From Botryococcus braunii (lineage: Eukaryota > Chlorophyta > Trebouxiophyceae): 64,000 nt of DNA. Within the stretch, counting starts at the first letter, position 1, and each line of letters starts with the position of its first letter. Of this stretch, positions 832 through 54,112 are shown in pieces. The translations under genes and the position numbers were made by a program. Under the pieces are notes generated by a model. That model was not told the origin of the DNA. It did no database searches and saw only the letters and a list, made by a program, of their open reading frames with translations. The stretch is taken from contig KV908575.1 of NCBI GenBank assembly GCA_002005505.1, positions 1 through 64,000 on the forward strand, given 5' to 3'.

Positions 832-836
832 GTCGG
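832..836. repeat. Left TSD of element B (gtcgg)
   Basis: The 5-bp target duplication directly before B's 5' LTR. The same gtcgg directly follows B's 3' LTR at 54113-54117, which proves that the 53-kb interval is one nested insertion. Confidence 0.95.
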
Positions 837-1933
837 TGTTGGAGTTTGTGTACTGTCAGGACAATCCAAAGATGACAATTCTAACAAGAATAAATTAGCT
901 GTATAGTTGACCATGTGCTCAACCCAAGGGAAACTCTTTGATAAACAGCTAGTGGTCTTTTGGCCACAAGCAGTAATGTATAAAGTATCTAAGAACATGG
1001 TAGAGAATGTCCTTCCTGTTGTTTGTGGCTATTAAAAATGAGTTTATCCTAATTGTTAATAACGTGATAAACTCATATTGGGATAAGGGCCAATTTCAAG
1101 GCTCTGAACCTCAACTCTGATACGGATTCATGAAAAGGGCCAGAACAGCGCAATTCAACGCGCTAATCTGATAATACTAGGAGCGACTGACCGAAGTCTC
1201 AAGCAGTCAATCCGTAGTGTTTGTGAAACGTCTTTGTTGTCTCAAACACTGACTCTCAGCCTGATCTCAATTAACTCTCATCTGTGTTGGCATCGTGGAT
1301 GCATTGTTTCAGATCAAGAGGAGATCAGACTGGTGAGGCGCATGTTCGTCGTTTACGTTATTCTAACAGCCATAAGTGCTGTTTGTTGATTTTAACTAAG
1401 AAATATTCTTGCTAATGTGCAGGCCTGTTAAACTGCTTCGATCATACCATGTTGTTGATGTTGAAAGTATTTACTTACTTGGTAAGCAGTTTACGCTGCA
1501 CGTTGGTTCGCAGACAAGTAATCGTGTGTGAATTACCAGCAAGATACTGATTGTGTAACATGCACATGATGACACATGTATATGTCTCATCATCTGTGAT
1601 CTATAATATTAAATACAAACTGGATCTTGCAGGTAATCGTTAGATAGACCAGTTTCGTATACTACCCGGTGTAAGTCAATCCGTAGTGTTTGTGAAACGT
1701 CTTTGTTGTCTCAAACACTGACTCTCAGCCTGATCTCAATTAACTCTCATCTGTGTTGGCATCGTGGATGCATTGTTTCAGATCAAGAGGAGATCAGACT
1801 GGCCTGTTAAACTGCTTCGATCATACCATGTTGTTGATGTTGAAAGTATTTACTTACTTGGATGACACATGTATATGTCTCATCATCTGTGATCTATAAT
1901 ATTAAATACAAACTGGATCTTGCAGGATCCACA
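837..1933 (+). repeat. 5' LTR of B with unspliced and spliced leader copies
   Basis: A 1097-bp LTR. After a U3-like part with an A/T-rich box (ATAATACTA, 1171-1179), a segment at 1205-1632 reads exon 1 (1205-1332), intron 1 (1333-1422, GT...AG), exon 2 (1423-1481), intron 2 (1482-1567, GTAAGC...; ends AT here but AG in the 3' LTR) and exon 3 (1568-1632). The start of intron 3 (GTAATC, 1633-1673) follows. Then come exon 1 again (1674-1801), exon 2 (1802-1860) and exon 3 (1861-1925), joined without introns and followed by GATCCACA. Exon lengths match exactly between copies: 128, 59 and 65 bp. Confidence 0.9.
1171..1179 (+). promoter_or_regulatory. Possible TATA-like box of B's LTR
   Basis: ATAATACTA lies 26-34 bp before 1205. 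That is where the duplicated segment begins and where I infer the RNA 5' end. The spacing fits a TATA box; the match is weak. Confidence 0.35.
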
Positions 1934-1949
1934 ATGGTTATGGGCCCAC
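1934..1949 (+). other. Primer-binding site of B (half-tRNA type)
   Basis: ATGGTTATGGGCCCAC begins right after the LTR and is complementary to the anticodon arm of initiator tRNA-Met. Element A is inserted one base beyond it. The first downstream B sequence (cccATGGAG) resumes at 8639. Confidence 0.8.
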
Positions 1950-1950
1950 G

Positions 1951-2316
1951 TGTTGAGTTCTGAACATTATTATTGAATGCCTTGTGCTTTAAGTGATCTT
2001 CATGTGTGCACTATTAGGATATGGGTCCATTGAGAACATAAGGTACCTTGAGACACGGCAGATTCTGGACGTTTTCGAACATAAGGTACAATCCTATCTA
2101 GATCACACGTTTGTCGGATGAACTCTTAAGGCTGCCCCACCGGAGTGAATACCAACTGGTTGTGAAAGATGCTGGGCATCACCAGATGCTAGTCTTGTCC
2201 GACAGTTGTGTGTGGCACTCAGCAGACAGTCGTACGGACTGTAGCTGGAGTAACTTCGTCTATTGACGACCTGTCTGCTTTGTACAGGGAAAGCCGATTG
2301 CCCATAACCTTTCACA
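1951..2316 (+). repeat. 5' LTR of A (single-exon form)
   Basis: 366 bp, TGTTGAG...TTTCACA. It has one copy of a 134-bp exon-like segment (2154-2287, ending GTACAG) followed directly by GGAAAGCC and the LTR end. The 3' LTR has two copies of this segment with intron-like DNA between them. It includes two copies of CATAAGGTAC (2036-2045 and 2080-2089). Confidence 0.9.
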
Positions 2317-2325
2317 GGTTATGGG
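2301..2325 (+). other. Primer-binding site of A inside an LTR-end hairpin
   Basis: CCCATAACC (2301-2309, LTR) and GGTTATGGG (2317-2325, primer site) form a perfect 9-bp stem with a 7-nt loop spanning the LTR boundary. GGTTATGGGCCCACG is complementary to the initiator tRNA anticodon arm; the LTR half is the same sense as the tRNA loop. Confidence 0.8.
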
Positions 2326-2706
2326 CCCACGCCCTTCCAGCTGAGCCAAGTAAAAGCAGGAGTGAAGGTCGTCTACGGATGGGTCAGACGTAAGCGTCAA
2401 CAAAGGAGCTCGAGCATGGCGCAGCGGCGCAAGGGAACTCGAGTGTACCAGGACCATTATCTTACTCACAGTTTACCTTTCTGGGAAATTCATAATTGAA
2501 GTTTTAGCTGTGCTTTATCATTCATAGACGTTGTCTAGAAGCACTGAGTGAGTCGGGCCGGACTCCGGCGCAAACTTCTGAGGGGAACATATCTGCTACT
2601 ACTGTGCAAGACTGGCTGGTAAATTTCCATGACATGGAGGGAATTGTAGGGTATTGCTGCATTCCAGAAGTTTATGAGTAAGTTTGGCTGGTGAAGTGAC
2701 AATAGT

Positions 2707-5649
2707 ATGACAAAAAGGGGCAAAGAAAAGGAAAGTAGCAGTGAAACAGCAATGTCTCAACCTGGAGAAGTCAGTGGGGCCACTCCAGGGCAGTCTATGA
2801 CCGGGACACAATCAGCCACTGCAGAACCAAAGGTGGAGATTGACAAGGCAGCCTACATCCCCAATACCTCTAATCCAAAGATGACTGTCATGCTTGATGA
2901 TGGAGGGCGCAATTTTGAATTTTGGTATGAAAATTTGGAGGCGTGCGCAAACACCAAGGGGGTCAGAGCGGCTTTGGAGAGGCCAATGCCAGGGTCGGTG
3001 GAGAACTCAGCCATCAAGCAGTGGCTGATCCAGTCAGTTCCAGTCATCTGGCATTCTCAGATCTCATGCCACAAAGCAGCGTTCGACTTCATCGCGTGGG
3101 TGAAGAACAGTCACACTGGAGGGAGCAACCAAGACATCAACCTTGAGTGGTACAAGGAAATGGAGCAGGGCATCAAGACAGGGGAGACACTCAAGGTCTA
3201 CCTCTACAGAATGATGGATCTGGCTACAAGTCTCAGAAACAACGCGTTCATCCTCTTGGACCACAATGTTGGGGAGCTGATGGTGAAGGGCCTCCCTCCT
3301 GTGCTGAGGCTCGAGTCCCTGGAGGTTATGGCAACCGACAAGCCGCCATTGGAGCTGATTCAAAGAATCCTGCGCGCCGCAGCCAGCCGTGGGTACAAGG
3401 ACCCACCTGCAGAGGGAACACCTCAGGCCATGGCAGCTGCAGCAGTGGCTGGTCCCTCTGGGGGGGTAGCTGGAGCGTCATCAAGCGCTGGAGCTGCACC
3501 AGGAGTGGGAGCAGTACCGGGAGTTGGAGCAGCACTACCAGCAAACGAACAGCCTCCCGCTGGCCCCTCTGCAACGACTTTTGGTGGCAGGGGGCGTGGA
3601 CCTGGCAGGGCAAGAAGGCCCAGAGAGGAGCTTACATACCACTTCTGCAAGGCAAAGGGCCACTTCATGACTGACTGCGGACCGCTCAGGCAGCTGCAGG
3701 CTCTGCATCAAAACATGCAAGCGGCAAGCGTTGGGCCTGCAGCTTACTGGGGCCAGGGAGGCCCACAGTCGTCTCCTCAAGCCTGGTGGGACCATGGATC
3801 TGGCCGGGGTGGCCCGCCTTCATCCGCTTCCAGCCCTGGACCTCCTTCAGCATATAACTATCCAACAAGTCAACACACGTTTCCGGGGTGGCATTTACCA
3901 CCTCCACCCCCTCCTTCTGGTGAGGCGATGTTTATCTCTCTCAATGTGCTTGCCCCAACTTCGCATGGAGCTAGCAGCACATCTTGGTTAATAGATAGTG
4001 GTGCCTCTGTGCATATAGTCAATGATCTCTCATTGCTCCATAATCCAGTTATGCATAGACAGCCTCTTCCTCTGCACTTGGCAACCTCAGACGCCAAGGG
4101 AGGAATCATTGCATCTGGGTCTGTATGCCTTGTGAATGCAAGGCACGAAGTATTCTGGCTACACAATGTGCAGTGTGTTCCTTCTGCGCATACCAACCTC
4201 ATTTCAGTCACTGGTGCAATTCAGGATGGAGCATCTTTCCTGACTGACACTGCAGGTGGTTACACAGCCATGAAGGGACCTGAAGGGTGGTGTGGAGATA
4301 TCACCCGCGCACGAGGTCTGTTTTTTTTGGAGTTTGTTAGTCCTGTCAGAGGGCAGCAAGTTGACTGCAGACATATTGATCACATGGCTGAGGCGTCTCA
4401 TCTTAGGAAAGGACACGTGTGTAGCGAGAGATCTCTGTGGCATGCTAGGTTAGGTCATCCTGGTGCCAGCAGCATGCAGAGGTTCTCCAAGGAAGATCTG
4501 GTTACAGGAATCAATATCTCCCTTGCTCCCTGCTCTGAGTGCCCCAAGCACTGTGAATCGTGTATACAAGGGAAACACTCCAGACCTCCTTTCCCGGTAT
4601 CTTCCAGGCCTGCACATCACCCACTCGATAGAGTCCATGTGGATACTGTGGGTCCCATATCACCTCCTGCCATCACAGGTGAACGATATTGGGTCACTGT
4701 AGTGGATGAAAGTTCACACCAAGTTGCCTCCCTGCCTGTGAAGTCAAAGGATTGCATCCCAAAGGCTGTGATAGACCTGCTCCGTTTTTGGCAGACCCAA
4801 CGAGGCACGGTTGTGAAGTGTGTGAGGACTGACAGGGGTTCAGAGTTCCTGAACCAGCAATTCAAAGAGTTTTGTGCTCAGCAGGGCACTAAGATGGAGT
4901 CCTCAGCGCCCTACACGCCTCAGCAGAATGGGGTGGCGGAGAGGATGAATAGGACCCTGAAGGAGCGAACAAGGACTCTGTTGGTCCATGCTGCAGCAGA
5001 CCCCTCCCTTTGGAAGGAGGCGCTTGAGACAGCTACCCTCCTCTACAATGTGGGTCCTACTTCAGGCAGGTCCCTGACCCCCATGGAATTATTCTTTGGT
5101 GTCAAACCTGATGTGTCTGTGCTGCGCACGTTTGGCTGTGTAGCCCATGTGCACATTCCCAGTGGCCAAAGGTCTGTTTTTGGGCCCAAGACCATCCCTG
5201 GGATGTTTACTGGTTATTGTCCCCAGTCTAAAGCGTATCGTGTGTACGTGGGGAATGGAGTGTGGAAGGAGAGTAGGGACGTCAGCTTTATCGAGCACTT
5301 GAGGGGGGCTGAGAGAGTGGGTCTATCAAAGGTCCAGCCTGGGTCTGTCTATGATTCTAGGATATCACCCCCCTTGGCAGTGAGAATCTGGCAACGCCTC
5401 AAGCAATTCCCTCTGCTGCTCCACCCACGTTCTGGGATGAGGAGGATGACCATGGAGTGGAGACGCTTTCCACTGGGGCTCCTGGGACCTCTGGACTTTG
5501 TGCTGGGGATCAGTCTGGAGACGGGACCACAGCAGCACATGACCAAGGAAACCCCACCAGCCTGGATTCTACTGTTGGGACCCCAGAATCATCTCAGCAC
5601 TCGTGGTCGGTGCTTGAGCATATGCAGAATCTGGCCAGGGGGGGTGTAG
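2707..5649 (+). CDS. A gag-protease-integrase polyprotein part
   Basis: Starts at ATG 2707. In order: a copia-type gag region (residues ~30-230), an Ala/Gly/Pro-rich linker, and a zinc knuckle near 311-324 reading YHFCKAKGHFMTDC, where Tyr311 replaces the usual first Cys. The aspartic protease is IDSGAS near 430. Integrase follows with an HHCC zinc region (LWHARLGHP...CPKHCESC), then the catalytic acids in VHVDTVGP, RTDRGSEF and QQNGVAERMN. The frame leaves the ancestral one at a C6 run (5368-5373); the residues after that are out of frame. The polyprotein would package RNA, process itself and integrate the cDNA. Confidence 0.9.
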   Translation: MTKRGKEKESSSETAMSQPGEVSGATPGQSMTGTQSATAEPKVEIDKAAYIPNTSNPKMTVMLDDGGRNFEFWYENLEACANTKGVRAALERPMPGSVENSAIKQWLIQSVPVIWHSQISCHKAAFDFIAWVKNSHTGGSNQDINLEWYKEMEQGIKTGETLKVYLYRMMDLATSLRNNAFILLDHNVGELMVKGLPPVLRLESLEVMATDKPPLELIQRILRAAASRGYKDPPAEGTPQAMAAAAVAGPSGGVAGASSSAGAAPGVGAVPGVGAALPANEQPPAGPSATTFGGRGRGPGRARRPREELTYHFCKAKGHFMTDCGPLRQLQALHQNMQAASVGPAAYWGQGGPQSSPQAWWDHGSGRGGPPSSASSPGPPSAYNYPTSQHTFPGWHLPPPPPPSGEAMFISLNVLAPTSHGASSTSWLIDSGASVHIVNDLSLLHNPVMHRQPLPLHLATSDAKGGIIASGSVCLVNARHEVFWLHNVQCVPSAHTNLISVTGAIQDGASFLTDTAGGYTAMKGPEGWCGDITRARGLFFLEFVSPVRGQQVDCRHIDHMAEASHLRKGHVCSERSLWHARLGHPGASSMQRFSKEDLVTGINISLAPCSECPKHCESCIQGKHSRPPFPVSSRPAHHPLDRVHVDTVGPISPPAITGERYWVTVVDESSHQVASLPVKSKDCIPKAVIDLLRFWQTQRGTVVKCVRTDRGSEFLNQQFKEFCAQQGTKMESSAPYTPQQNGVAERMNRTLKERTRTLLVHAAADPSLWKEALETATLLYNVGPTSGRSLTPMELFFGVKPDVSVLRTFGCVAHVHIPSGQRSVFGPKTIPGMFTGYCPQSKAYRVYVGNGVWKESRDVSFIEHLRGAERVGLSKVQPGSVYDSRISPPLAVRIWQRLKQFPLLLHPRSGMRRMTMEWRRFPLGLLGPLDFVLGISLETGPQQHMTKETPPAWILLLGPQNHLSTRGRCLSICRIWPGGV

Positions 5650-7919
5650 AAACTCAATCCCAGGTAGAAAAAATGCAGAAGGTACAAGAGGGGTTGCGAA
5701 TGCAGGGGAAGTCACAAATTCCCCTTCCTCCAGGGACCACCCTTACAAGGGAGCAGCGTTATGTACAGCGCGTGGCTAGGAGAGAGCATTCTGACATCCC
5801 ATTGCATGCCCCTGACCCAGGTCAGGCAATTGTGAGTGAGCCAAACATGGTTGGTCTCCCTGATATGCAGGGGCAGGTTGAGACAGTCGAGGCTATGTTC
5901 GGTGCAGATGTAAGAGATGAGAGCAGTGGGTTAGACATGCCAGCAGTAGGGGAAGCTGGTGCCCAATCCCAGTCACTGGCTAGTCATGCTTATGGTGTGC
6001 AGGCTGACATTGTAGGCGCAGCTCAGGCAAGTCTGGGTAGTGTGCCCAAGTGTGAGTCCAGGAGAGAGAGAGAGCTGCTGCTCCCCTCTGCATTGCGGAA
6101 GGTGCGAGAATGTAAGGGTGCTGCACATGAGTCCAGTAGTCAAGGAGAGAGAGAGAGACTTGAGAAGGAATCAGATAATCCCGGCAGTACTGCCCAGTCC
6201 CAGCATAAGGTACATAATGTACCTTATTCTGGCAACCAGGGAGAGAGAGAGAGAGAAGGGAACAGCATCAGTAAGGCTGACAGCCCTGCTGCACCACAGC
6301 ATAAGGTACAGAGTGTACCTTCTGTCACGTTGGGAAAAGTTCACGTGCCCTCAAACTTGAGGGAAGCCCAGCGCTCACCTCAGTGGGAGTTTTGGCAGCA
6401 GGCAATGCAAGAGGAGATGGAGTCTTTAGACACCCATGAGGTTATGCAGTATGTGGAAAGACCCCATGGGCAGAAAGTTATCCCTGTTCATTGGATTTTT
6501 TCTACAAAAAACGATGCACATGGGAATGTCACTCGGTTTAAAGCAAGATTGGTTGCCCAGGGTTGCAGACAGATTCCTGGTATAGATGTTGGTGAGGTTT
6601 TTGCACCTACCAGCAGCTATGGTGCTAGGAGAGCTGTGTTGGCAGTGGCTGCCACACAAAATCTTGAGATCCACCAAGTGGATATCAAGACAGCTTTTCT
6701 CAATGGGGAGTTGGAGGAAGAGGTCTATGTGACCCAACCACCAGGATTTGAGAATGGCAACACGAGAGTTGTGTGCAAGCTCAGGAAGGCACTCTACGGT
6801 CTTAAGCAAGCCCCACGGGCTTGGCACAAGACCTTGAGCGACAAGTTGAGCGTGATGGGGTATAGTGTGTGCAAGAGCGACGCTGGGGTATACATCAGGA
6901 GGGCCCCTGATGGTAATCTGTCGTTTATTCTTGTTTATGTCGATGATCTTCTCATAGTTGCCAGAGTGGTTGCAGAGATTGAGTGGGGGAAAGAGTTATT
7001 GAAGAAGGACTTCACCATCCATGATTTGGGAGAGGTGAATGATTTCCTGGGGTGTCAGGTCCTACGCAATAGAGTTCAGGGCACTATTTCCATGAGTTGC
7101 ACTCCCAAGATTGATGCTCTTGTGGAGAAGTTTGGCGTTGCTGATGATGGACGTGGGGTTGATACCCCCATGTCCAAGGACTTCGTGGCTAGCAGCAGAC
7201 CCGAGTCCTCAGATGGTATGTCACATGGGGCTGGTACCCCTCTGCCACCTGGTCATCGATACTGCGAGTTAATTGGATCGTTACTGTACATAGCCAATAC
7301 GACCCGGCCTGACATTTCTCAGGCTGTTGGAGTGTTGTCAAGGTATAGAATGACACCCACTACCTCACACTGGAATGAGGCCATTCGAGTGCTGAAGTAC
7401 TTGAGAGATACCAGAGAGTTAGCTCTTACTCTGGGTGGAAAGGGCCCTGAGCTAGAAGGCTATGTTGATGCCGACTATGCTGGGGACCTGGACCACAGGT
7501 ATTCCACCACTGGCTATGTTCTATCAGTCTATGGTAGTGCCGTGGTTTGGGGAAGCAAGAAGCAGAGCTCAGTTGCTACCTCAACTGTGCAAGCTGAGTT
7601 TATGGCAGCTGGCCATATTGTGAAGGAAGCCAACTGGCTAAGGGGCTTCTTGGAAGAGATAGGGGCTGCACCTTGGAGGGTCAAAATTTTCTGTGACAAC
7701 CAAGGATGCATTTCTAATTTACGGAACCCCCTGTATTCCAAATTCACAAAGCACGTTGCAGTAAGCTTCCACTACGCTAGGGAAGCTATGGCACTTGGGC
7801 AGGTAGATATCCTCTATGTGGAATCTGCACGCAATGTGGCTGACATTATGACCAAGCCACTTGCCAAGCCCGTGTTTGTTGGTCATCGTGATTCACTAGG
7901 TTTGAGAAGATACACTTAA
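5371..7919 (+). CDS. A reverse transcriptase-RNase H polyprotein part
   Basis: This continues A's polyprotein in the frame reached after the C6 run; translation across the run gives TPLGSENLATP. A low-complexity acidic linker with GERERE repeats is followed by copia RT (WIFSTKNDAHG, QVDIKTAFLNG, catalytic YVDDLLIV) and RNase H (YVDADYAGDLDHRYSTTG, STVQAEFMAA), ending IMTKPLAKPVF...RRYT. All RT/RNase H motifs are present. The first downstream ATG is 5457, but the normal product would be the gag-pol fusion. A one-base repair of the C run would give a complete polyprotein, so the break may be a sequencing error. Confidence 0.9.
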
Positions 7920-25397: not shown

Positions 25398-25694
25398 TGA
25401 TACAGTAGAAACGGCCAAAGGATGCGGGAACAATGGTTACAACTTGTTTGGGCTCCACCTCAGTACCCGTCCAGTCCGGCCCGGTCCTTCCTCTGCCAAA
25501 GCCTTATTCTATCCTGTTCTAAGTGTACCTGTCTCCATCGCCAATGCGCCTTGTCAAGTAAGGGGTCACTCCCTTGGCGCGTGAAGCAGCCACTTCTTGG
25601 CGTGGAGGACCATAACTCACGAAGGGACCTTTATGGAGGTCCAAATCCTCGTGGTCCGGTCATTTTCCTATAACACGCGACTATTCCTGTTACA
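25398..25694 (-). repeat. 5' LTR of G
   Basis: 297 bp, TGTAACAGGAATAG...CTGTATCA on the minus strand, followed on the plus strand by TSD ttcgc. Confidence 0.95.
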
Positions 25695-25699
25695 TTCGC

Positions 25700-26942
25700 T
25701 CCAGTAAGTACACACACATCTAGGAGGGTGCTGTTAAATCTTGCCACGTCAAATGGGTGGAAAACTCACCAAGTTGATGTGAAGACAGCATTCCTAAATG
25801 GAACACTGGATGAGGAAGTGTATGTAGCCCAACCTTCATGTTTCTTTAATGGCGATTCTAATGTTGTGTGCAAGCTACTGAGATCCTTGTATGGTCTGAA
25901 GCAAGCACCACGTGCATGGCACAAGTGCCTCGTTGAAGAGCTTGAAAAGTTTGGGTTTATAGCCTGTCAGTGTGATCCAGCGCTCTTCATTAACAAGGAG
26001 TCATTCAAGTCACACGTATACTTGTTAGTATATGTGGATGATTTGCTGATTGTGAGTGAGGATGTGGAATCTATTCAGTGTGTTAAACAACAGCTGACTA
26101 GTATATTCTCAATTCACGATCTTGGTGAGTTAAAGTCATTTTTGGGTTGTGAAATCAAGATAAATGAATCATCACACACTCTGAAAATGACTAATGTTCT
26201 AAAAATCGAGAAATTGGTGGAAGAATATGGGCTGCCTGATCAAGGGAAGGAGGTGGATACACCCATGTCAGGTTCCTTCTTGCCTACTCAAATGCCTGAA
26301 CCTCCTAAAGGGATGACTGGAGAGCAGATTGGATCAGGAGTTCCCTTACCAGAAGGTCACAGGTATTTAGAATTAATTGGTTCACTACAGTATTTGTCAA
26401 CAACTACAAGGCCTGATATTTCTCAAGCTGTGGGGATGTTGAGCAGATTTAGAGGAAAGCCAACAACATCCCATTGGAATGGAGCAATTAGAGTACTGAG
26501 GTACCTCAACTGCACCAAATACATGGGAATCAAGTATACTGGATCAAATAAAAATGAACTGGTATGCTTTGTGGATGCAGATTTTGCAGGTGATCTGGAC
26601 AGTAGAAAATCCACAACTGGGTTTGTGTTTCTACTAAACGGATCTGCTGTATCCTGGTCAAGTAAGAGGCAAACTTCCATAGCAACATCACTGTGGAGTC
26701 TGAATATATTGCTGTGAGTGCAGCAGTGAAAGAAGCCATGTGGGTGGGAAGTATGCTCTGTGAGTTGGGAGAAGAGATCACATGTGTAACCATGTATTGT
26801 GATAATCAGGGGTGTGTGTCAAACCTGAGAAATCACATGGTCTCAAAACACACTAAACACATCAGTGTGAGTTATCATCATGCACGAGAGAAGGTGGTTT
26901 GGGGTCAAATTGATCCTACATATGTGCCAACTACTGAAAATG
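25700..26942 (+). pseudogene. B pol, RT and RNase H (frameshifted, cut by E)
   Basis: Resumes B's RT after G (F-A|PVSTHTSRRVLLNLA). It contains HQVDVKTAFLNG, the catalytic YVDDLLIVS and RNase H CFVDADFAGDLDSRKSTTG. A one-base loss near 26690 shifts the frame within the expected SIATSTVESEYIAVSA; the remainder reads VESEYIAVSAAVKEAMW and SKHTKHISVSYHHAREKV. It breaks at TTEN|V where E is inserted; the last codons are at 52907-52980. Confidence 0.9.
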
Positions 26943-28669: not shown

Positions 28670-28734
28670 GCGGTTAGAGCCTCGGTTCGAAGGGAGACGT
28701 AAGGAAGGTTGCCATCGGATTGTCCCTTGCGAGT

Positions 28735-29934
28735 ATGGCGTCCGTCAGGAAAGGAAGCAAGTACGCTGGTATCCCTTTGTTGGAAAAGGAAGTGTTGGAA
28801 GGGCTTGAAAAGGAGGGTGTCGAAGTGGACGATCTCATGCAAGAGGAGTTTGAAACGGAACCAGCTCCACCGCCTAAACCCACACCCAAACGGAAAACCA
28901 AGCTTGCACCAATGAAGAAACCCTTGAAGAAAGACAGAACCCAAATTTTGATTGCTAAGCTACTCAAAAGGATCGAGGCCTTGGAGGGTCAACGAGCTTC
29001 CCAGCGGACGCCATCCTCAAATCACGTAGTGCGTGTGCCTACACGCGCAATGTTCACGGGCAAACGGGGGAGTTTCCAGTTCTTTGCTAGCAAAGTAGAA
29101 TCTTATGCTGACATCTCGAATGTGGCACGTGACAAGTGGGTGGCAGTCGCACTCCAGTGCATGGAGGAGCGACCTACAAAGGTGTGGGGAACTCACTTAA
29201 AAAGGAAGGAACGGGAAGGGGATCAAATGGAAGCAACTTGGGAGGAGTTCAAGACTTTTATGGGGAACCGCTATGACTCAACCGACCTTGTTATGGCCGC
29301 ACGCCAAAAGCTTGATCATGTCTATCAAGGCCATGAAAGTGTTGAAAAATATATCGAAAGGTTCATAACGCTCTTGAGTGACGTTGAAACTGAGTATGAG
29401 ATATGCGAAAATGATAAAATATACATGTTTCTCAAAGGCTTGAATGCTCATATTAGAGTTGCTTGCACGATAAACCCACAAACTGGTGTTAGATTCTCAG
29501 ACCTCGACGTATTGTGCACTTATGTGGTGCAATATGAAAGTAACTTAAAGTCAGGGGGGATGCTGAGGGGACAGGAAGGAAGGAAGGTTCTCAACGCTGT
29601 GAAGAGGACTCCCATAAGCACGCCGGCACACTTTCCGGGATTCACCCAGGGGCCTGTGCTTGGAGCCGTCGGCCACAGCGTTGGTGGGAAGTTAGATTCT
29701 CGGACTAGCGTCCCCTCCGAGCGCCAGTGTTACTTCTGCAAAAACTTTGGTCACGAGCAATGGCAATGTCAGGCCAAGCGGGACTACTTGCAAAGGAAGA
29801 GCAGGCGCGACAGTCAATTGCCCCCACCTCCTCCTTTTCCCTCTAATCAAGCTCGAGGTGGGCAGTGGAAGGGCCGTGGTGGCCGGGGAGGACATTGGAA
29901 GGGAAAAGGGCCGGGGCATAATCCTCAAAAGTAA
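28735..29934 (+). CDS. X/Y family gag, left copy
   Basis: ATG at 28735 (MASVRKGSKYAG), 399 residues. Acidic/Pro-Lys-rich N-terminus, gag core (WEEFKTFMGNRYDSTD, VEKYIERFITLLSDVE), zinc knuckle CYFCKNFGHEQWQC, and a Gly/Arg/Trp-rich tail. The stop is 12 bp before the pol ATG, without the overlap seen in F and G. The protein is identical to the right copy. Confidence 0.9.
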   Translation: MASVRKGSKYAGIPLLEKEVLEGLEKEGVEVDDLMQEEFETEPAPPPKPTPKRKTKLAPMKKPLKKDRTQILIAKLLKRIEALEGQRASQRTPSSNHVVRVPTRAMFTGKRGSFQFFASKVESYADISNVARDKWVAVALQCMEERPTKVWGTHLKRKEREGDQMEATWEEFKTFMGNRYDSTDLVMAARQKLDHVYQGHESVEKYIERFITLLSDVETEYEICENDKIYMFLKGLNAHIRVACTINPQTGVRFSDLDVLCTYVVQYESNLKSGGMLRGQEGRKVLNAVKRTPISTPAHFPGFTQGPVLGAVGHSVGGKLDSRTSVPSERQCYFCKNFGHEQWQCQAKRDYLQRKSRRDSQLPPPPPFPSNQARGGQWKGRGGRGGHWKGKGPGHNPQK

Positions 29935-29945
29935 ATTCTGAAGCC

Positions 29946-32900
29946 ATGGATGCCACTTGCTTGCATGAATTGCACTCTCTTGTGGCCTCCAAATTGGGAA
30001 AGGAAGGGGTAAACCTTGTGGTGCCAAATGTTAGGAAGGCTGAATCTGAGATTTCCAAGTTTTTAGGGGAACAAAGGTGCAACCCGTCCCTCACTTGTTG
30101 TTTCATTGTGGGAAGGAAAGCTTGGAAAAGTAAGAGTCTCTATGCTCACCGTATGCAAGGAAGGATTGTGGAAGTGTGTTCAGGAAGGAAGGGACAGGCG
30201 GTAGACATGAATGGTCAAACTAGTGTATACCCATTCTCTTTTATATGTTGTGTGGTTCCCCCAAGACCCACACTCACCATGGGAAGTGTTACTACTGACT
30301 CTCCGCTCGCTATGACCTTTCCTGCGAATGTTAAGGGGAAAATCCTTTCAGTGTTGTTTGACAGTGGGGCGTCTCATTCCTTTATTAAAAGTGATACTTT
30401 GCAAGGACTTGGGGTGCGCTATAAACCCTCGAGTATCTCAGTGACTCTTGCGGATGGAAGTGTGTCTGATACGAAAGGAACGGTCGATGTGTCATTTACG
30501 CTTAAGCCCGGTGTAAGCTCCCGTCATAACTTCATTGTAAGCCCTGCCATGATTGATGGGGTAGACATGACTTTGGGGCAGGATTGGATGGAAGCAAGGG
30601 GAGCCTCCATTGATTTTCGTGTGAAAGCTGCTCACTTTAGACATCATGGGAAGTGGGTTACCTTAACACGAGCAGATTCACCCTTGCCGGTTGGGCCAAA
30701 ACTTGTTTGGGGTCTTCAAGCAAAAGAAAGGAAGGAGGGAAGGAAGGACAGGAATGGAAGGGGATGGAAGGGGCAAGATGTATGGAAAGTTTGCTTGTAT
30801 ACTGTGCTTGTGAATGACCAGGCTGAGTTGGTGGACATCACCGGGGAGGACGCCTCAAGTGGGGTCGACCTGGCGGATACCGACCAATCTGTGGACGACA
30901 CGCCCGTCGTCACAAAACCCACCAGTGGTACCGGTATGACTTTCACTCAACAAATAAATGATATGCTGGAAGGAAAACCGCAGGCATTGAAGGAGTTGTT
31001 ACGTGCTAATGAGGATTTGTTTGCCAAGCAACTCCCGGGGCTACCTCCGGAAAGGGAAGTATTTCACACAATAAATTTGGAGGAAGGACATCGGCCTCCC
31101 AATAGGCCCGCGTACCGGCTAGCTCCAAGTGAGCTTGCGGAGTGCGAGAAAACAGTGGATGAGTTGTTGAAATTGGGATTGATCAGGCCAAGTTGCTCCC
31201 CTTTTGCTTCACCTGTTTTGTTCGTTAGGAAGAAGGATGGAAGTTTACGGATGGTTATAGATTACCGTCCCCTCAACAAAATCACTATCTCTGATAGATA
31301 CCCTCTACCCAGAATTGATGACCTGTTAGATAAACTTAAGGGAGCAAAAGTGTTTTCAAGCTTGGACTTACTGTCTGGATACCATCAGGTCAGGCTTCGG
31401 AAGGAGGATGTGCCAAAGACTGCCTTTCGGACCCCTTTTGGTTTGTACGAATTTCTTGTTCTCCCCTTTGGTCTGACAAATGCCCCTGCCACATTTCAGA
31501 GGTTGATGAATGAAGTCTTTCATGACTTTATAAGGGAAGGATTTGTGGTGGTGTATTTAGATGATGTGCTCATTTGCAGCAAAACGGAAGATGAACACTT
31601 GGGGCAGTTGGAGAGAGTTTTCACCCGTCTGCGTGAACATCAACTCTTGGCAAAACTTGTTAAATGTTCTTTCTTTGAGAACCAATTGAAGTACTTGGGA
31701 CACATTATTGGTGCAAATGGATTGGAAGTGGATATGGATAAAGTCAAGGTGGTGCAAGAGTGGCCTTCACCCACAAACGTAACGGAAGTTAGAAGGTTTT
31801 TGGGGTTGTCTAACTATTTTCGCAAATTCATCCAAAACTATAGTATCCTAGCAACCCCATTGACCGCTCTCTCTGGAGCAAAGGCACCTTGGAAGTGGGG
31901 ACAGGAGCAACAGGAAGCATTCACCAAAATCAAGGAAGCATTGGTAAGAGCCCCTATCCTGACACTCCCGGATGTACGTCGGCCATTCAAGGTGGTGTGC
32001 GACGCATGCGATTACGGCGTGGGAGCTGTGTTGTTTCAAGATGGGAAGGTTTGTGCTTATTTTAGCAAGAAGTTGGGAGCAAGCGAGAGGAACTACAGTG
32101 CCACGGAACGGGAATTATTGGCTGTGGTGTATGCTCTCACGGAATGGAGATGTTATCTTTTGGGGAAGCCAGTGACAGTGGTAACGGATCACAAGTGTAA
32201 TACCTTCTTGGGTCAACAGGTTGGGCTTAGTCCTCGGAGGGCTCGGTGGGCCGAGCGCCTGCAGGAGTTTGAGATTGAATGGGTATGGGAACCGGGAAAG
32301 ACCAACATTGCGGACCCGCTCTCCAGGTGTTTCACTCAACATGGTCACCCTGGATCTGGGGGGAGGGACAATGGAGTAGTGGCCGGGGTTGCCCTCCGGC
32401 GCAAGCGTACGCGCCCCTCTCCGGACTGCCTCACCCCCTCCAGATTGGATGCAGCTCGGTCCCGCAAGGTTCGAAAAGTCACGGAGCCCGCTCAGGAGGT
32501 CCAAAACCCCCTCGGCACGATGGAGCAAATTGGGTTGGCCAGCCCAAGTGAGCTCACCCCCGATACCGATGGGTACGAAACCTTACTTGGAAAACTTGGG
32601 AAGGCTTACACAGATGATCCTTGGTTGGCAGTGCGCGCGAATCGTCGGAAGGTTAGTCTTAAGGGAGGCTTTTGGGAAAGGAATGGACGGAAGTATGTTC
32701 CTGCATTGTTTGAGGAAAGGAAGAATGGGGAACTTGGTGTTGAGAATCTGCGACATGGAATTTTGGAAGCATTGCATGACCCGCCTCATGTTGGCCACCC
32801 TGGAGTAACTCGCATGTATGAACTTCTCACAAGGGAATGGTATTGGCCTGGAATGTATGAGGATGTCAAAGCCTATGTTGCTCATTGTGACTCTTGCCAG

Positions 32901-33614
32901 CGGGTCAAGGCTCGGAATACTTTGCCTGCTGGTCTTCTTCACCCTTTACAAATACCAGTCAGGAAGTGGCAAAGTTTGTCCATGGATTTCATTACTAATT
33001 TGCCAAAGACTCCCAATGGAAATGATGCTATTTGGGTTGTCGTGGATAGGCTTAGCAAGTGTGCTCATTTTGCAGCTACAACCATGAATGCGGGTGCTTA
33101 TACGGTGGCACAATTGCTAAGGACACGGGTATGGATGTATCATGGATATCCGGAGGAAATTGTTTCTGATCGGGACCCCCGCTTTGTGAGTAAGTTTATG
33201 AAGGCGTTACATGAACTTACGGGATGTCGGCCTGCCCTTTCAACTGCCGCCCCCGCCTGGTATCATCCGACCGTGAATGTCAACTTCCTCACCCCCTACC
33301 GTACCGCTGATGTCGCACGTGTGCGTCCGCCGCCGCCGCCCCCGCATCTCGTCAACGACCATATCGAATACGAGATTGGTGGCATTGTGGACCACAAGCC
33401 ACTCATGGACGACCGCGGCCGCACTCTCTACGACCCGGATGGAACCCCGCATATGCAATACCTTGTGCGATGGAAAGGTTACACGCCCGACGACGATACG
33501 TGGGGACCACTCACGAATTTTACGCGCTGCCGCCAGCAAGTGGAGCAGTACAGAGGGAGTCACGGGTTGCCTCCATTGCCTCCCAGGGGCACAATCCCTC
33601 GGATTCGCCCTTAG
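29946..33614 (+). CDS. X/Y family pol, left copy, integrase deleted
   Basis: 1222 residues from ATG 29946. Protease is FDSGASHSFI. RT has VIDYRPLNKITISDRYPLP and YLDDVLICS. RNase H has CDACDYGVGAVLF, and NIADPLSR follows. The integrase zinc region is GHPGVTRM...CDSCQRVK, and two acids are seen in SMDFITNLP and VSDRDPRF. After RPALSTA the sequence jumps to APAWYHPTVNV, so the expected FHPQTDGQTE block with the third catalytic residue (Glu) and about 100 residues are missing. A chromodomain follows (YLVRWKGYTPDDDTWGPL). Frame is preserved, so the polyprotein is translatable but integrase is dead. Confidence 0.92.
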   Translation: MDATCLHELHSLVASKLGKEGVNLVVPNVRKAESEISKFLGEQRCNPSLTCCFIVGRKAWKSKSLYAHRMQGRIVEVCSGRKGQAVDMNGQTSVYPFSFICCVVPPRPTLTMGSVTTDSPLAMTFPANVKGKILSVLFDSGASHSFIKSDTLQGLGVRYKPSSISVTLADGSVSDTKGTVDVSFTLKPGVSSRHNFIVSPAMIDGVDMTLGQDWMEARGASIDFRVKAAHFRHHGKWVTLTRADSPLPVGPKLVWGLQAKERKEGRKDRNGRGWKGQDVWKVCLYTVLVNDQAELVDITGEDASSGVDLADTDQSVDDTPVVTKPTSGTGMTFTQQINDMLEGKPQALKELLRANEDLFAKQLPGLPPEREVFHTINLEEGHRPPNRPAYRLAPSELAECEKTVDELLKLGLIRPSCSPFASPVLFVRKKDGSLRMVIDYRPLNKITISDRYPLPRIDDLLDKLKGAKVFSSLDLLSGYHQVRLRKEDVPKTAFRTPFGLYEFLVLPFGLTNAPATFQRLMNEVFHDFIREGFVVVYLDDVLICSKTEDEHLGQLERVFTRLREHQLLAKLVKCSFFENQLKYLGHIIGANGLEVDMDKVKVVQEWPSPTNVTEVRRFLGLSNYFRKFIQNYSILATPLTALSGAKAPWKWGQEQQEAFTKIKEALVRAPILTLPDVRRPFKVVCDACDYGVGAVLFQDGKVCAYFSKKLGASERNYSATERELLAVVYALTEWRCYLLGKPVTVVTDHKCNTFLGQQVGLSPRRARWAERLQEFEIEWVWEPGKTNIADPLSRCFTQHGHPGSGGRDNGVVAGVALRRKRTRPSPDCLTPSRLDAARSRKVRKVTEPAQEVQNPLGTMEQIGLASPSELTPDTDGYETLLGKLGKAYTDDPWLAVRANRRKVSLKGGFWERNGRKYVPALFEERKNGELGVENLRHGILEALHDPPHVGHPGVTRMYELLTREWYWPGMYEDVKAYVAHCDSCQRVKARNTLPAGLLHPLQIPVRKWQSLSMDFITNLPKTPNGNDAIWVVVDRLSKCAHFAATTMNAGAYTVAQLLRTRVWMYHGYPEEIVSDRDPRFVSKFMKALHELTGCRPALSTAAPAWYHPTVNVNFLTPYRTADVARVRPPPPPPHLVNDHIEYEIGGIVDHKPLMDDRGRTLYDPDGTPHMQYLVRWKGYTPDDDTWGPLTNFTRCRQQVEQYRGSHGLPPLPPRGTIPRIRP

Positions 33615-34892: not shown

Positions 34893-37800
34893 CTAAGGGC
34901 GAATCCGAGGGATTGTGCCCCTGGGAGGCAATGGAGGCAACCCGTGACTCCCTCTGTACTGCTCCACTTGCTGGCGGCAGCGCGTAAAATTCGTGAGTGG
35001 TCCCCACGTATCGTCGTCGGGCGTGTAACCTTTCCATCGCACAAGGTATTGCATATGCGGGGTTCCATCCGGGTCGTAGAGAGTGCGGCCGCGGTCGTCC
35101 ATGAGTGGCTTGTGGTCCACAATGCCACCAATCTCGTATTCGATATGGTCGTTGACGAGATGCGGGGGCGGCGGCGGCGGACGCACACGTGCGACATCAG
35201 CGGTACGGTAGGGGGTGAGGAAGTTGACATTCACGGTCGGATGATACCAGGCGGGGGCGGCAGTTGAAAGGGCAGGCCGACATCCCGTAAGTTCATGTAA
35301 CGCCTTCATAAACTTACTCACAAAGCGGGGGTCCCGATCAGAAACAATTTCCTCCGGATATCCATGATACATCCATACCCGTGTCCTTAGCAATTGTGCC
35401 ACCGTATAAGCACCCGCATTCATGGTTGTAGCTGCAAAATGAGCACACTTGCTAAGCCTATCCACGACAACCCAAATAGCATCATTTCCATTGGGAGTCT
35501 TTGGCAAATTAGTAATGAAATCCATGGACAAACTTTGCCACTTCCTGACTGGTATTTGTAAAGGGTGAAGAAGACCAGCAGGCAAAGTATTCCGAGCCTT
35601 GACCCGCTGGCAAGAGTCACAATGAGCAACATAGGCTTTGACATCCTCATACATTCCAGGCCAATACCATTCCCTTGTGAGAAGTTCATACATGCGAGTT
35701 ACTCCAGGGTGGCCAACATGAGGCGGGTCATGCAATGCTTCCAAAATTCCATGTCGCAGATTCTCAACACCAAGTTCCCCATTCTTCCTTTCCTCAAACA
35801 ATGCAGGAACATACTTCCGTCCATTCCTTTCCCAAAAGCCTCCCTTAAGACTAACCTTCCGACGATTCGCGCGCACTGCCAACCAAGGATCATCTGTGTA
35901 AGCCTTCCCAAGTTTTCCAAGTAAGGTTTCGTACCCATCGGTATCGGGGGTGAGCTCACTTGGGCTGGCCAACCCAATTTGCTCCATCGTGCCGAGGGGG
36001 TTTTGGACCTCCTGAGCGGGCTCCGTGACTTTTCGAACCTTGCGGGACCGAGCTGCATCCAATCTGGAGGGGGTGAGGCAGTCCGGAGAGGGGCGCGTAC
36101 GCTTGCGCCGGAGGGCAACCCCGGCCACTACTCCATTGTCCCTCCCCCCAGATCCAGGGTGACCATGTTGAGTGAAACACCTGGAGAGCGGGTCCGCAAT
36201 GTTGGTCTTTCCCGGTTCCCATACCCATTCAATCTCAAACTCCTGCAGGCGCTCGGCCCACCGAGCCCTCCGAGGACTAAGCCCAACCTGTTGACCCAAG
36301 AAGGTATTACACTTGTGATCCGTTACCACTGTCACTGGCTTCCCCAAAAGATAACATCTCCATTCCGTGAGAGCATACACCACAGCCAATAATTCCCGTT
36401 CCGTGGCACTGTAGTTCCTCTCGCTTGCTCCCAACTTCTTGCTAAAATAAGCACAAACCTTCCCATCTTGAAACAACACAGCTCCCACGCCGTAATCGCA
36501 TGCGTCGCACACCACCTTGAATGGCCGACGTACATCCGGGAGTGTCAGGATAGGGGCTCTTACCAATGCTTCCTTGATTTTGGTGAATGCTTCCTGTTGC
36601 TCCTGTCCCCACTTCCAAGGTGCCTTTGCTCCAGAGAGAGCGGTCAATGGGGTTGCTAGGATACTATAGTTTTGGATGAATTTGCGAAAATAGTTAGACA
36701 ACCCCAAAAACCTTCTAACTTCCGTTACGTTTGTGGGTGAAGGCCACTCTTGCACCACCTTGACTTTATCCATATCCACTTCCAATCCATTTGCACCAAT
36801 AATGTGTCCCAAGTACTTCAATTGGTTCTCAAAGAAAGAACATTTAACAAGTTTTGCCAAGAGTTGATGTTCACGCAGACGGGTGAAAACTCTCTCCAAC
36901 TGCCCCAAGTGTTCATCTTCCGTTTTGCTGCAAATGAGCACATCATCTAAATACACCACCACAAATCCTTCCCTTATAAAGTCATGAAAGACTTCATTCA
37001 TCAACCTCTGAAATGTGGCAGGGGCATTTGTCAGACCAAAGGGGAGAACAAGAAATTCGTACAAACCAAAAGGGGTCCGAAAGGCAGTCTTTGGCACATC
37101 CTCCTTCCGAAGCCTGACCTGATGGTATCCAGACAGTAAGTCCAAGCTTGAAAACACTTTTGCTCCCTTAAGTTTATCTAACAGGTCATCAATTCTGGGT
37201 AGAGGGTATCTATCAGAGATAGTGATTTTGTTGAGGGGACGGTAATCTATAACCATCCGTAAACTTCCATCCTTCTTCCTAACGAACAAAACAGGTGAAG
37301 CAAAAGGGGAGCAACTTGGCCTGATCAATCCCAATTTCAACAACTCATCCACTGTTTTCTCGCACTCCGCAAGCTCACTTGGAGCTAGCCGGTACGCGGG
37401 CCTATTGGGAGGCCGATGTCCTTCCTCCAAATTTATTGTGTGAAATACTTCCCTTTCCGGAGGTAGCCCCGGGAGTTGCTTGGCAAACAAATCCTCATTA
37501 GCACGTAACAACTCCTTCAATGCCTGCGGTTTTCCTTCCAGCATATCATTTATTTGTTGAGTGAAAGTCATACCGGTACCACTGGTGGGTTTTGTGACGA
37601 CGGGCGTGTCGTCCACAGATTGGTCGGTATCCGCCAGGTCGACCCCACTTGAGGCGTCCTCCCCGGTGATGTCCACCAACTCAGCCTGGTCATTCACAAG
37701 CACAGTATACAAGCAAACTTTCCATACATCTTGCCCCTTCCATCCCCTTCCATTCCTGTCCTTCCTTCCCTCCTTCCTTTCTTTTGCTTGAAGACCCCAA

Positions 37801-38561
37801 ACAAGTTTTGGCCCAACCGGCAAGGGTGAATCTGCTCGTGTTAAGGTAACCCACTTCCCATGATGTCTAAAGTGAGCAGCTTTCACACGAAAATCAATGG
37901 AGGCTCCCCTTGCTTCCATCCAATCCTGCCCCAAAGTCATGTCTACCCCATCAATCATGGCAGGGCTTACAATGAAGTTATGACGGGAGCTTACACCGGG
38001 CTTAAGCGTAAATGACACATCGACCGTTCCTTTCGTATCAGACACACTTCCATCCGCAAGAGTCACTGAGATACTCGAGGGTTTATAGCGCACCCCAAGT
38101 CCTTGCAAAGTATCACTTTTAATAAAGGAATGAGACGCCCCACTGTCAAACAACACTGAAAGGATTTTCCCCTTAACATTCGCAGGAAAGGTCATAGCGA
38201 GCGGAGAGTCAGTAGTAACACTTCCCATGGTGAGTGTGGGTCTTGGGGGAACCACACAACATATAAAAGAGAATGGGTATACACTAGTTTGACCATTCAT
38301 GTCTACCGCCTGTCCCTTCCTTCCTGAACACACTTCCACAATCCTTCCTTGCATACGGTGAGCATAGAGACTCTTACTTTTCCAAGCTTTCCTTCCCACA
38401 ATGAAACAACAAGTGAGGGACGGGTTGCACCTTTGTTCCCCTAAAAACTTGGAAATCTCAGATTCAGCCTTCCTAACATTTGGCACCACAAGGTTTACCC
38501 CTTCCTTTCCCAATTTGGAGGCCACAAGAGAGTGCAATTCATGCAAGCAAGTGGCATCCAT
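34893..38561 (-). CDS. X/Y family pol, right copy, integrase deleted
   Basis: 1222 residues, identical in protein sequence to the left copy and with the same in-frame integrase deletion (RPALSTA|APAWYHP). Protease, RT (YLDDVLICS), RNase H and chromodomain are intact. Either both elements descend from one deleted master mobilised by another element's integrase, or one copy converted the other. Confidence 0.92.
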   Translation of the reverse strand: MDATCLHELHSLVASKLGKEGVNLVVPNVRKAESEISKFLGEQRCNPSLTCCFIVGRKAWKSKSLYAHRMQGRIVEVCSGRKGQAVDMNGQTSVYPFSFICCVVPPRPTLTMGSVTTDSPLAMTFPANVKGKILSVLFDSGASHSFIKSDTLQGLGVRYKPSSISVTLADGSVSDTKGTVDVSFTLKPGVSSRHNFIVSPAMIDGVDMTLGQDWMEARGASIDFRVKAAHFRHHGKWVTLTRADSPLPVGPKLVWGLQAKERKEGRKDRNGRGWKGQDVWKVCLYTVLVNDQAELVDITGEDASSGVDLADTDQSVDDTPVVTKPTSGTGMTFTQQINDMLEGKPQALKELLRANEDLFAKQLPGLPPEREVFHTINLEEGHRPPNRPAYRLAPSELAECEKTVDELLKLGLIRPSCSPFASPVLFVRKKDGSLRMVIDYRPLNKITISDRYPLPRIDDLLDKLKGAKVFSSLDLLSGYHQVRLRKEDVPKTAFRTPFGLYEFLVLPFGLTNAPATFQRLMNEVFHDFIREGFVVVYLDDVLICSKTEDEHLGQLERVFTRLREHQLLAKLVKCSFFENQLKYLGHIIGANGLEVDMDKVKVVQEWPSPTNVTEVRRFLGLSNYFRKFIQNYSILATPLTALSGAKAPWKWGQEQQEAFTKIKEALVRAPILTLPDVRRPFKVVCDACDYGVGAVLFQDGKVCAYFSKKLGASERNYSATERELLAVVYALTEWRCYLLGKPVTVVTDHKCNTFLGQQVGLSPRRARWAERLQEFEIEWVWEPGKTNIADPLSRCFTQHGHPGSGGRDNGVVAGVALRRKRTRPSPDCLTPSRLDAARSRKVRKVTEPAQEVQNPLGTMEQIGLASPSELTPDTDGYETLLGKLGKAYTDDPWLAVRANRRKVSLKGGFWERNGRKYVPALFEERKNGELGVENLRHGILEALHDPPHVGHPGVTRMYELLTREWYWPGMYEDVKAYVAHCDSCQRVKARNTLPAGLLHPLQIPVRKWQSLSMDFITNLPKTPNGNDAIWVVVDRLSKCAHFAATTMNAGAYTVAQLLRTRVWMYHGYPEEIVSDRDPRFVSKFMKALHELTGCRPALSTAAPAWYHPTVNVNFLTPYRTADVARVRPPPPPPHLVNDHIEYEIGGIVDHKPLMDDRGRTLYDPDGTPHMQYLVRWKGYTPDDDTWGPLTNFTRCRQQVEQYRGSHGLPPLPPRGTIPRIRP

Positions 38562-38572
38562 GGCTTCAGAAT

Positions 38573-39772
38573 TTACTTTTGAGGATTATGCCCCGGCCCT
38601 TTTCCCTTCCAATGTCCTCCCCGGCCACCACGGCCCTTCCACTGCCCACCTCGAGCTTGATTAGAGGGAAAAGGAGGAGGTGGGGGCAATTGACTGTCGC
38701 GCCTGCTCTTCCTTTGCAAGTAGTCCCGCTTGGCCTGACATTGCCATTGCTCGTGACCAAAGTTTTTGCAGAAGTAACACTGGCGCTCGGAGGGGACGCT
38801 AGTCCGAGAATCTAACTTCCCACCAACGCTGTGGCCGACGGCTCCAAGCACAGGCCCCTGGGTGAATCCCGGAAAGTGTGCCGGCGTGCTTATGGGAGTC
38901 CTCTTCACAGCGTTGAGAACCTTCCTTCCTTCCTGTCCCCTCAGCATCCCCCCTGACTTTAAGTTACTTTCATATTGCACCACATAAGTGCACAATACGT
39001 CGAGGTCTGAGAATCTAACACCAGTTTGTGGGTTTATCGTGCAAGCAACTCTAATATGAGCATTCAAGCCTTTGAGAAACATGTATATTTTATCATTTTC
39101 GCATATCTCATACTCAGTTTCAACGTCACTCAAGAGCGTTATGAACCTTTCGATATATTTTTCAACACTTTCATGGCCTTGATAGACATGATCAAGCTTT
39201 TGGCGTGCGGCCATAACAAGGTCGGTTGAGTCATAGCGGTTCCCCATAAAAGTCTTGAACTCCTCCCAAGTTGCTTCCATTTGATCCCCTTCCCGTTCCT
39301 TCCTTTTTAAGTGAGTTCCCCACACCTTTGTAGGTCGCTCCTCCATGCACTGGAGTGCGACTGCCACCCACTTGTCACGTGCCACATTCGAGATGTCAGC
39401 ATAAGATTCTACTTTGCTAGCAAAGAACTGGAAACTCCCCCGTTTGCCCGTGAACATTGCGCGTGTAGGCACACGCACTACGTGATTTGAGGATGGCGTC
39501 CGCTGGGAAGCTCGTTGACCCTCCAAGGCCTCGATCCTTTTGAGTAGCTTAGCAATCAAAATTTGGGTTCTGTCTTTCTTCAAGGGTTTCTTCATTGGTG
39601 CAAGCTTGGTTTTCCGTTTGGGTGTGGGTTTAGGCGGTGGAGCTGGTTCCGTTTCAAACTCCTCTTGCATGAGATCGTCCACTTCGACACCCTCCTTTTC
39701 AAGCCCTTCCAACACTTCCTTTTCCAACAAAGGGATACCAGCGTACTTGCTTCCTTTCCTGACGGACGCCAT
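38573..39772 (-). CDS. X/Y family gag, right copy
   Basis: 399 residues from the ATG at 39772, identical in protein to the left copy (zinc knuckle CYFCKNFGHEQWQC). Lies just inside LTR R and its primer site at 39838-39850. Confidence 0.9.
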   Translation of the reverse strand: MASVRKGSKYAGIPLLEKEVLEGLEKEGVEVDDLMQEEFETEPAPPPKPTPKRKTKLAPMKKPLKKDRTQILIAKLLKRIEALEGQRASQRTPSSNHVVRVPTRAMFTGKRGSFQFFASKVESYADISNVARDKWVAVALQCMEERPTKVWGTHLKRKEREGDQMEATWEEFKTFMGNRYDSTDLVMAARQKLDHVYQGHESVEKYIERFITLLSDVETEYEICENDKIYMFLKGLNAHIRVACTINPQTGVRFSDLDVLCTYVVQYESNLKSGGMLRGQEGRKVLNAVKRTPISTPAHFPGFTQGPVLGAVGHSVGGKLDSRTSVPSERQCYFCKNFGHEQWQCQAKRDYLQRKSRRDSQLPPPPPFPSNQARGGQWKGRGGRGGHWKGKGPGHNPQK

Positions 39773-52980: not shown

Positions 52981-53018
52981 CTGAATGTTGGCATGTCCTG
53001 AAAGTACAAGGGGAAGAT
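52981..53018 (+). other. Polypurine tract region of B
   Basis: 38 bp ending acaaggggaagat directly before the 3' LTR; close to the tract of A and E. Confidence 0.75.
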
Positions 53019-54112
53019 TGTTGGAGTTTGTGTACTGTCAGGACAATCCAAAGATGACAATTCTAACAAGAATAAATTAGCTGTATAGTTGACCATGTGC
53101 TCAACTCAAGGGAAACTCTTTGATAAACAGCTAGTGGTCTTTTGGCCACAAGCAGTAATGTATAAAGTATCTAAGAACATGGTAGAGAATGTCCTTCCTG
53201 TTGTTTGTGGCTATTAAAAATGAGTTTATCCTAATTGTTAATAACGTGATAAACTCATATTGGGATAAGGGCCAATTTCCAAGGCTCTGAACCTCAACTC
53301 TGATACGGATTCATGAAAAAGGCCAGAACAGCGCAATTCAACGCGCTACTCTGATAATACTAGGAGCGACTGACCGAAGTCTCAAGCAGTCAATCCGTAG
53401 TGTTTGTGAAACGTCTTTGTTGTCTCAAACACTGACTCTCAGCCTGATCTCAATTAACTCTCATCTGTGTTGGCATCGTGGATGCATTGTTTCAGATCAA
53501 GAGGAGATCAGACTGGTGAGGCGCATGTTCGTCGCTTACGTTATTCTAACAGCCATAAGTGCTGTTGGTTTTAACTAAGAAATATTCTTGCTAATGTGCA
53601 GGCCTGTTAAACTGCTTCGATCATACCATGTTGTTGATGTTGAAAGTATTTACTTACTTGGTAAGCAGTTTACGCTGCACGTTGGTTCGGAGACAAGTAA
53701 TCGTGTGTGAATTACCAGCAAGATACTGATTGTGTAACATGCACAGGATGACACATGTATATGTCTCATCATCTGTGATCTATAATATTAAATACAAACT
53801 GGATCTTGCAGGTAATCGTTAGATAGACCAGTGTCGTATACTACCCGGTGTAAGTCAATCCGTAGTGTTTGTGAAACGTCTTTGTTGTCTCAAACACTGA
53901 CTCTCAGCCTGATCTCAATTAACTCTCATCTGTGTTGGCATCGTGGATGCATTGTTTCAGATCAAGAGGAGATCAGACTGGCCTGTTAAACTGCTTCGAT
54001 CATACCATGTTGTTGATGTTGAAAGTATTTACTTACTTGGATGACACATGTATATGTCTCATCATCTGTGATCTATAATATTAAATACAAACTGGATCTT
54101 GCAGGATCCACA
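53019..54112 (+). repeat. 3' LTR of B with unspliced and spliced leader copies
   Basis: 1094 bp. Same structure as the 5' LTR: exon 1 53388-53515, intron 1 53516-53601, exon 2 53602-53660, intron 2 53661-53746 (here ending CACAG, a proper acceptor), exon 3 53747-53811, intron 3 start 53812-53852, then spliced copy 53853-54104 and GATCCACA. TSD gtcgg follows. Confidence 0.92.

Follow-up and report, generated by a model that had tools for sequence, protein, structure and literature searches.

Paired unspliced and spliced leader copies in the long terminal repeats of a Copia-type retrotransposon from Botryococcus braunii

Layout of Element B

The window analyzed here is a 64,000-nucleotide stretch of Botryococcus braunii DNA (Chlorophyta; GenBank assembly GCA_002005505.1, contig KV908575.1, positions 1 to 64,000 of the forward strand). 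It contains a Copia-type insertion, element B (837-54112), whose interior is broken up by nested elements. Both long terminal repeats (LTRs) of B hold an intron-bearing segment, R1, and a spliced copy of it, R2. The features of B are listed below.

832..836, +: target-site duplication (TSD) GTCGG, 5' copy; 3' copy at 54113-54117
837..1933, +: 5' LTR of element B, TG..CA
837..1204, +: U3; right edge at the putative transcription start A1205 (78 U3 copies aligned)
1205..1332, +: R1 exon 1, 128 bases; putative cap site at 1205
1333..1422, +: R1 intron 1, GT..AG, 90 bases (GTGAGG..GTGCAG)
1423..1481, +: R1 exon 2, 59 bases
1482..1567, +: R1 intron 2, GT..AT in this copy, 86 bases (GTAAGC..GCACAT)
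1568..1632, +: R1 exon 3, 65 bases
1633..1925, +: predicted intron 3 of the 5' leader, comprising a 41-base spacer (1633-1673) and R2; predicted donor CAG/GTAATC and acceptor TTGCAG/GATC
1670..1674, +: TGTAA, putative poly(A) signal at the R2 start
1674..1925, +: R2, exact spliced R1 copy; its first ~8-13 nt are the putative short terminal redundancy
1926..1933, +: U5, 8 bp, GATCCACA
1935..1950, +: primer-binding site TGGTTATGGGCCCACG
25692..26288, +: remnant of B's own reverse transcriptase (RT) between nested elements, 96% identity over query residues 54-252
53006..53018, +: polypurine tract ACAAGGGGAAGAT
53019..54112, +: 3' LTR of the same build (R1 53388-53811, TGTAA 53849-53853, R2 53853-54104)

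The three R1 exons, when joined (1205-1332, 1423-1481, and 1568-1632; 128 + 59 + 65 bases), match 1674-1925 at every letter. An earlier note on this DNA had described 1674-1925 as a repeat of 1205-1632 lacking 1333-1422 and 1482-1567 and had called the missing pieces intron-like; both statements hold, as do the exon lengths that it gave. In R1, exon 3 runs into GTAATC; its counterpart in R2 adjoins GATCCACA. Alignment of 53388-53811 with 53853-54104 in the 3' LTR yields an identical R2. We take the primer-binding site TGGTTATGGGCCCACG to be complementary to the anticodon arm of the initiator tRNA-Met.

Copies Across the Genome

When the genome (176 Mb, 989 contigs) was searched at the DNA level, at least 46 matches were returned, with 40 of 142 candidates scored. 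Pattern searches allowing up to two mismatches detected 62 exon 1-exon 2 joins (controls 0) and 88 exon 1-intron 1 joins (controls 0 and 1). We parsed 86 locus-strand sets, which were assigned as 71 with a two-intron R1 and a complete R2, 4 with a single spliced copy (from two elements), and 11 truncated copies or fragments. A chance origin is excluded because the paired build appears in 71 of the 86 sets. It takes the form U3-R1-spacer-R2 in 63 of the 71, is alike without a matched U3 in 6, and has a doubled R1-spacer ahead of R2 in 2. Among 17 further loci (L090-L106), ten carry R1 with a complete R2, one of them (L095) with 32 extra R2 bases; the rest comprise three truncated loci and one each of a tandem form, a short form, a locus broken by an insertion, and a rearranged locus. 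By eye, the extra bases of L095 do not resemble intron sequence.

The gaps in R2 match introns whose lengths vary by subfamily, from 86 to 95 and from 78 to 87 bases in the 71 LTRs. All but one of these (70 of 71) have a GT-AG intron 2; the exception, CACAT, is a private change of the 5' LTR in the window. Intron 1 was called GT-AG in 67 of the 71, the exceptions being L041, L065, and two L046 copies, which have the donor GTGAG and a private R2 change next to the join. Neither an R2 with an intron nor an R1 lacking just one intron beside R2 was found among the 86 sets and L090-L106, in which truncated sets are uninformative; the rearranged locus L093 and the 5' LTR of a Y-family element at C44 came nearest. 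The candidate natural splice-site mutant L077/L078 was dropped, as its truncated R2 makes it uninformative. We saw no sign, among the LTRs compared, that the missing pieces are insertions with TSDs of their own.

Concerted Evolution and Timing of the R1/R2 Likeness

R1 exons and R2 were compared in 64 LTRs, after both L046 copies, the L017 minus strand, L050, L056, L059, and L062 had been dropped from the 71 for truncation or large indels. The two segments differ on average by 1.06% within one LTR and by 10.1% between LTRs. R1 carries 988 minor states across 64 polymorphic columns, of which 967 recur in the R2 of the same LTR, and subfamily variants are common to both segments of an LTR. For 45 of the 64 LTRs its own R2 was the nearest, ties allowed, and none of 10,000 shuffles came near the observed within-LTR likeness. 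These comparisons exclude an old duplication with independent fates of R1 and R2.

The timing of this likeness was examined in 17 chosen element pairs, ten with TSDs checked by eye and seven matched by position and strand only (C18, the B-family pair at C44, C48, C164, C193, C318, and C424). The C43 copies were excluded for mismatched flanks, and some other possible pairs were unused. Divergence between 5' and 3' LTRs amounted to 63/9248 outside the exons and 48/8549 within them (p 0.34), or 111/17797 (0.62%) when all differences were pooled. R1 and R2 within LTRs differed at 50/8548 positions (0.58%), indistinguishable from the pooled value (Fisher p 0.74). On a plain reading, a newly inserted element had matching R1 exons and R2, which later diverged like the LTR pair. 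R2 appears to have been set at replication and not by later conversion. The nine differences counted between the LTRs of the window all lie outside exons (p 0.005), a bias that is absent from the 17 pooled pairs.

Recurrence in Related Families

The same build was identified in six further Copia families, seven in all, with RT identities from 80% down to about 52%. The six have different exon sequences, and their exons number one, three, or four. R1 and R2 begin at the identical base in all seven families. In each, a GT donor follows the last R1 exon and a CAG-type acceptor closes R2, consistent with the third intron, spacer plus R2, that the earlier note had proposed. TGTAA, the chlorophyte poly(A) signal, stands directly ahead of R2 in 7/7. 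In two families, hypervariability affects the bases between TGTAA and R2 and spares the U3/R1 border, which marks a scar at the start of R2; the scar of the B family is nearly constant.

Of the 120 RT relatives listed, metagenome proteins stand closest. By E-value, the best named relative belongs to the plant Tanacetum (44% identity), and the green algae Chlamydomonas eustigma (50%), Gonium (46%), and Haematococcus (47%) come next. The genome also gave 35 matches to the chlorophyll a/b-binding family, for which the cyanobacterium alone responded among 14 control genomes; the host is accordingly photosynthetic, and these results and the place of TGTAA together point to a probable green alga. 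Peptide patterns searched against viral contigs gave no match.

Short, Long, and Recombinant LTRs

Short LTRs (U3-spliced copy-U5) flank elements on both sides, with matching TSDs, at C35 and C322 (GCCAC in both; LTRs differing at 2/633 bases), C20 (GTGGA), C48 (CCTCC), and C598 (ACCTC). Other LTRs with a single spliced copy are the solo LTR L106 and the sole LTR seen at C365. Over 446 bases, the U3 of the 5' LTR at C48 shows no difference from two canonical copies; the change to the short form is therefore recent. In the U3 tree, C35 and C322 are nested within canonical copies. Short LTRs fit a transfer of spliced strong-stop DNA to R1 and fit recombination between exon 1 copies as well.

Long LTRs with the R1-spacer doubled ahead of R2 were detected at L026 (C261), L068 (C264:165800-168500), and L097 (C228). 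The tandem at C261 is confined to the 3' LTR and is likely the result of unequal exchange at the DNA level. Short and long forms alike could arise when strong-stop DNA, spliced or unspliced, is transferred to the other repeat; repeat recombination fits equally, and we do not count them as proof. The Y-family element at C44 (L111/L112, TSD GGTCT) has unequal LTRs, and its 5' LTR lacks the stretch from intron 2 through R2 exon 1, the product expected from recombination between two exon 2 copies.

Proposed Replication Cycle

We consider it highly probable that R2 is remade from spliced leader RNA by strong-stop transfer at each replication cycle. The matching divergences, the shared subfamily variants, and the recurrence in seven families, taken together, argue that R2 is rewritten each time. 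The build, its recurrence, the concerted evolution, the likeness at insertion, and the R2-start scar of two families are established from the sequences; what we infer in addition is where the RNA is capped and polyadenylated, that it is spliced, and that the R1 introns of the 3' copy are spared. The earlier note had explained R2 by reverse transcription of spliced leader RNA and its fusion to the unspliced LTR. Reverse transcription of spliced RNA is still the best explanation, but a single past fusion is not, as R2 is apparently rewritten in every cycle.

The LTR is organized as U3, intron-bearing R1, a spacer ending in TGTAA, R2 (spliced R1), and U5. Transcription would begin at R1. Splicing of the 5' leader would take out every intron, the one formed by the spacer and R2 among them, giving an RNA that starts with exons 1-2-3, U5, and the primer-binding site; that all leader introns are spliced is strongly suggested by R2 itself. 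With the last leader intron, the 5' LTR would lose its poly(A) signal, and that of the 3' LTR would be used. Cleavage of the RNA 3' end is expected ~8-13 nt into R2, past UGUAA, so that the redundancy would comprise the first few bases of R2 only. Strong-stop DNA made from the spliced leader would then transfer to the R2 start at the RNA 3' end, a step proposed because of the scar, the position of TGTAA, and the likeness at insertion. The new LTR would receive U3, R1, and the spacer, introns included, from the RNA 3' end, and its R2-U5 would be newly copied from the spliced leader at the 5' end. Such a scheme, with new R2 derived from the spliced 5' R1 and new R1 from the 3' copy, would account for both concerted evolution and intron survival. 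The 3' introns might be left unspliced because a cap defines the first exon at the 5' end and a very long exon lies at the 3' end, which we offer as an idea only.

The strongest rival accepts splicing and reverse transcription, but lets the RNA end past R2, in U5 or beyond, so that the whole of R2 serves as a long R. An ATTAAA in exon 3 of the B family, 19 nt ahead of the R2 end, and the nearly constant B scar are compatible with this arrangement. The position of TGTAA in all seven families and the R2-start scar in two speak against it, as does exon 3 of the X and Y families, which by eye has neither ATTAAA nor AATAAA; we regard a long R as unlikely. Also conceivable, though distinctly improbable, is end-to-end joining, in which the RNA ends ahead of R2 and strong-stop DNA jumps to the poly(A) tail without homology in each cycle.

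Gene conversion is less plausible still. Here one ancient reverse-transcription accident would have made R2, and chromosomal conversion would have kept it and the R1 exons alike ever since. Concerted evolution taken alone would fit, and recombination between repeats does happen (C44). However, R1-R2 divergence tracks the 5'-3' divergence of the same element and rises in proportion to it, indicating that homogenization ends at insertion, and the lack of mixed R1 and R2 forms described above is a further objection. An ordinary tandem duplication (R1-spacer-R2) with later indels unrelated to splicing deserves almost no credence: direct-repeat changes occur (C44; the tandem forms L026, L068, and L097), but the gaps are splice-exact across families with different exons, 1, 3, or 4 in number, and R1 and R2 were alike at insertion.

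We thus retain the rewriting of R2 from spliced leader RNA. A wider view, that B belongs to a Copia clade for which the spliceosome is obligatory in reverse transcription, seems to us probable, with rather less assurance. Part of each new LTR would be solely a splicing product, and introns would be inherited indefinitely via RNA, with the intron-bearing copy at the RNA 3' end and the spliced copy made at the 5' end. Because reverse transcription of RNA normally removes introns, none would be expected to last in the terminal repeats of a retrotransposon; the build points to a way of keeping them. A poly(A) signal inside a leader intron would also be one answer to the LTR problem of muting the 5' signal while using the 3' one. 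The families lend themselves naturally to studying how, of two identical sequences, only the 5' one comes to be spliced, and they hold a footprint, readable from DNA alone, of the cap site, the products of splicing, and the first-strand transfer.

Other Elements in the Window

A second Copia element, A, is inserted right behind the primer site of B (1951-7919 and onward). The coding region 2695-7919 was considered as B's own and rejected, as it belongs to this nested, very abundant element. All 150 scored matches listed for an RT piece of A, out of 2897 candidates, are 100% identical to it, and A has probably been active very recently. In this nested element, integrase lies upstream of the RT. 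The scanned part of its LTR (1951-2320) contains no direct repeat of at least 20 bases. Elsewhere, 28678-33614 (+) and 34893-39829 (-) each hold open frames of 418 and 1230 aa, arranged as mirror images, and, judged from frame lengths and order, look like a large inverted duplicate.

Classification and Comparison with Known Systems

Two B-family pol pieces, L088:1-1083 and 1084-2166, match PF07727 (E 1.7e-44 and 6.6e-13). The RT of the family is of the RVT_2 type; its pieces match RVT_2 only, and no Penelope-type RT was found among them. TG..CA LTR pairs with a 5-bp TSD were identified for the window (GTCGG) and, by eye, for nine further B-family pairs. Where flanks were read, ATGGTTATGGGCCCACG follows the 5' LTR (altered in one copy) and CAAGGGGAAGAT precedes the 3' LTR. 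The LTRs do not have a single collinear U3-R-U5, R occurring as an intron-bearing R1 and a spliced R2; by its remaining features, B is placed with Ty1/copia despite the doubled R.

B shares with Ty1/copia (Pseudoviridae) the RVT_2 RT, TG..CA LTRs, the 5-bp TSD, and the polypurine tract, and its half-tRNA-like primer site is presumably comparable to that of Drosophila copia. It differs in its LTR introns, the adjoining exact spliced copy, and a redundancy that would comprise only the first bases of that copy. Penelope-like elements with retained introns resemble B in that introns persist in a retroelement, but they have another RT and are not known to use LTR strand transfer or to carry paired spliced and unspliced copies. 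In HTLV, foamy viruses, and HIV, a splice donor lies in R or the leader, and a nearby 5' splice site can silence the 5' poly(A) signal. In retroviruses, first-strand transfer is known to introduce miscopied bases where U3 meets R. Spliced RNAs of these viruses either lack a primer site or do not normally serve as template for strong-stop DNA, unlike what we propose for B.

We found no report of introns kept in an LTR beside a spliced copy in open-licence PubMed Central full text; one apparent match was, in the available portion of that paper, merely a vector name (PMC5542766). Plant LTR elements are generally intron-less, with Ogre and EVADE as exceptions, according to the sections available of a review (PMC12786077). 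Ogre, EVADE, and Cer1 resemble B in that the spliceosome processes the RNA of an LTR element. As described in those sections, splicing in these three makes subgenomic or other spliced mRNAs (PMC12786077), whereas in B it would supply the strong-stop template, with the introns kept in the LTR.
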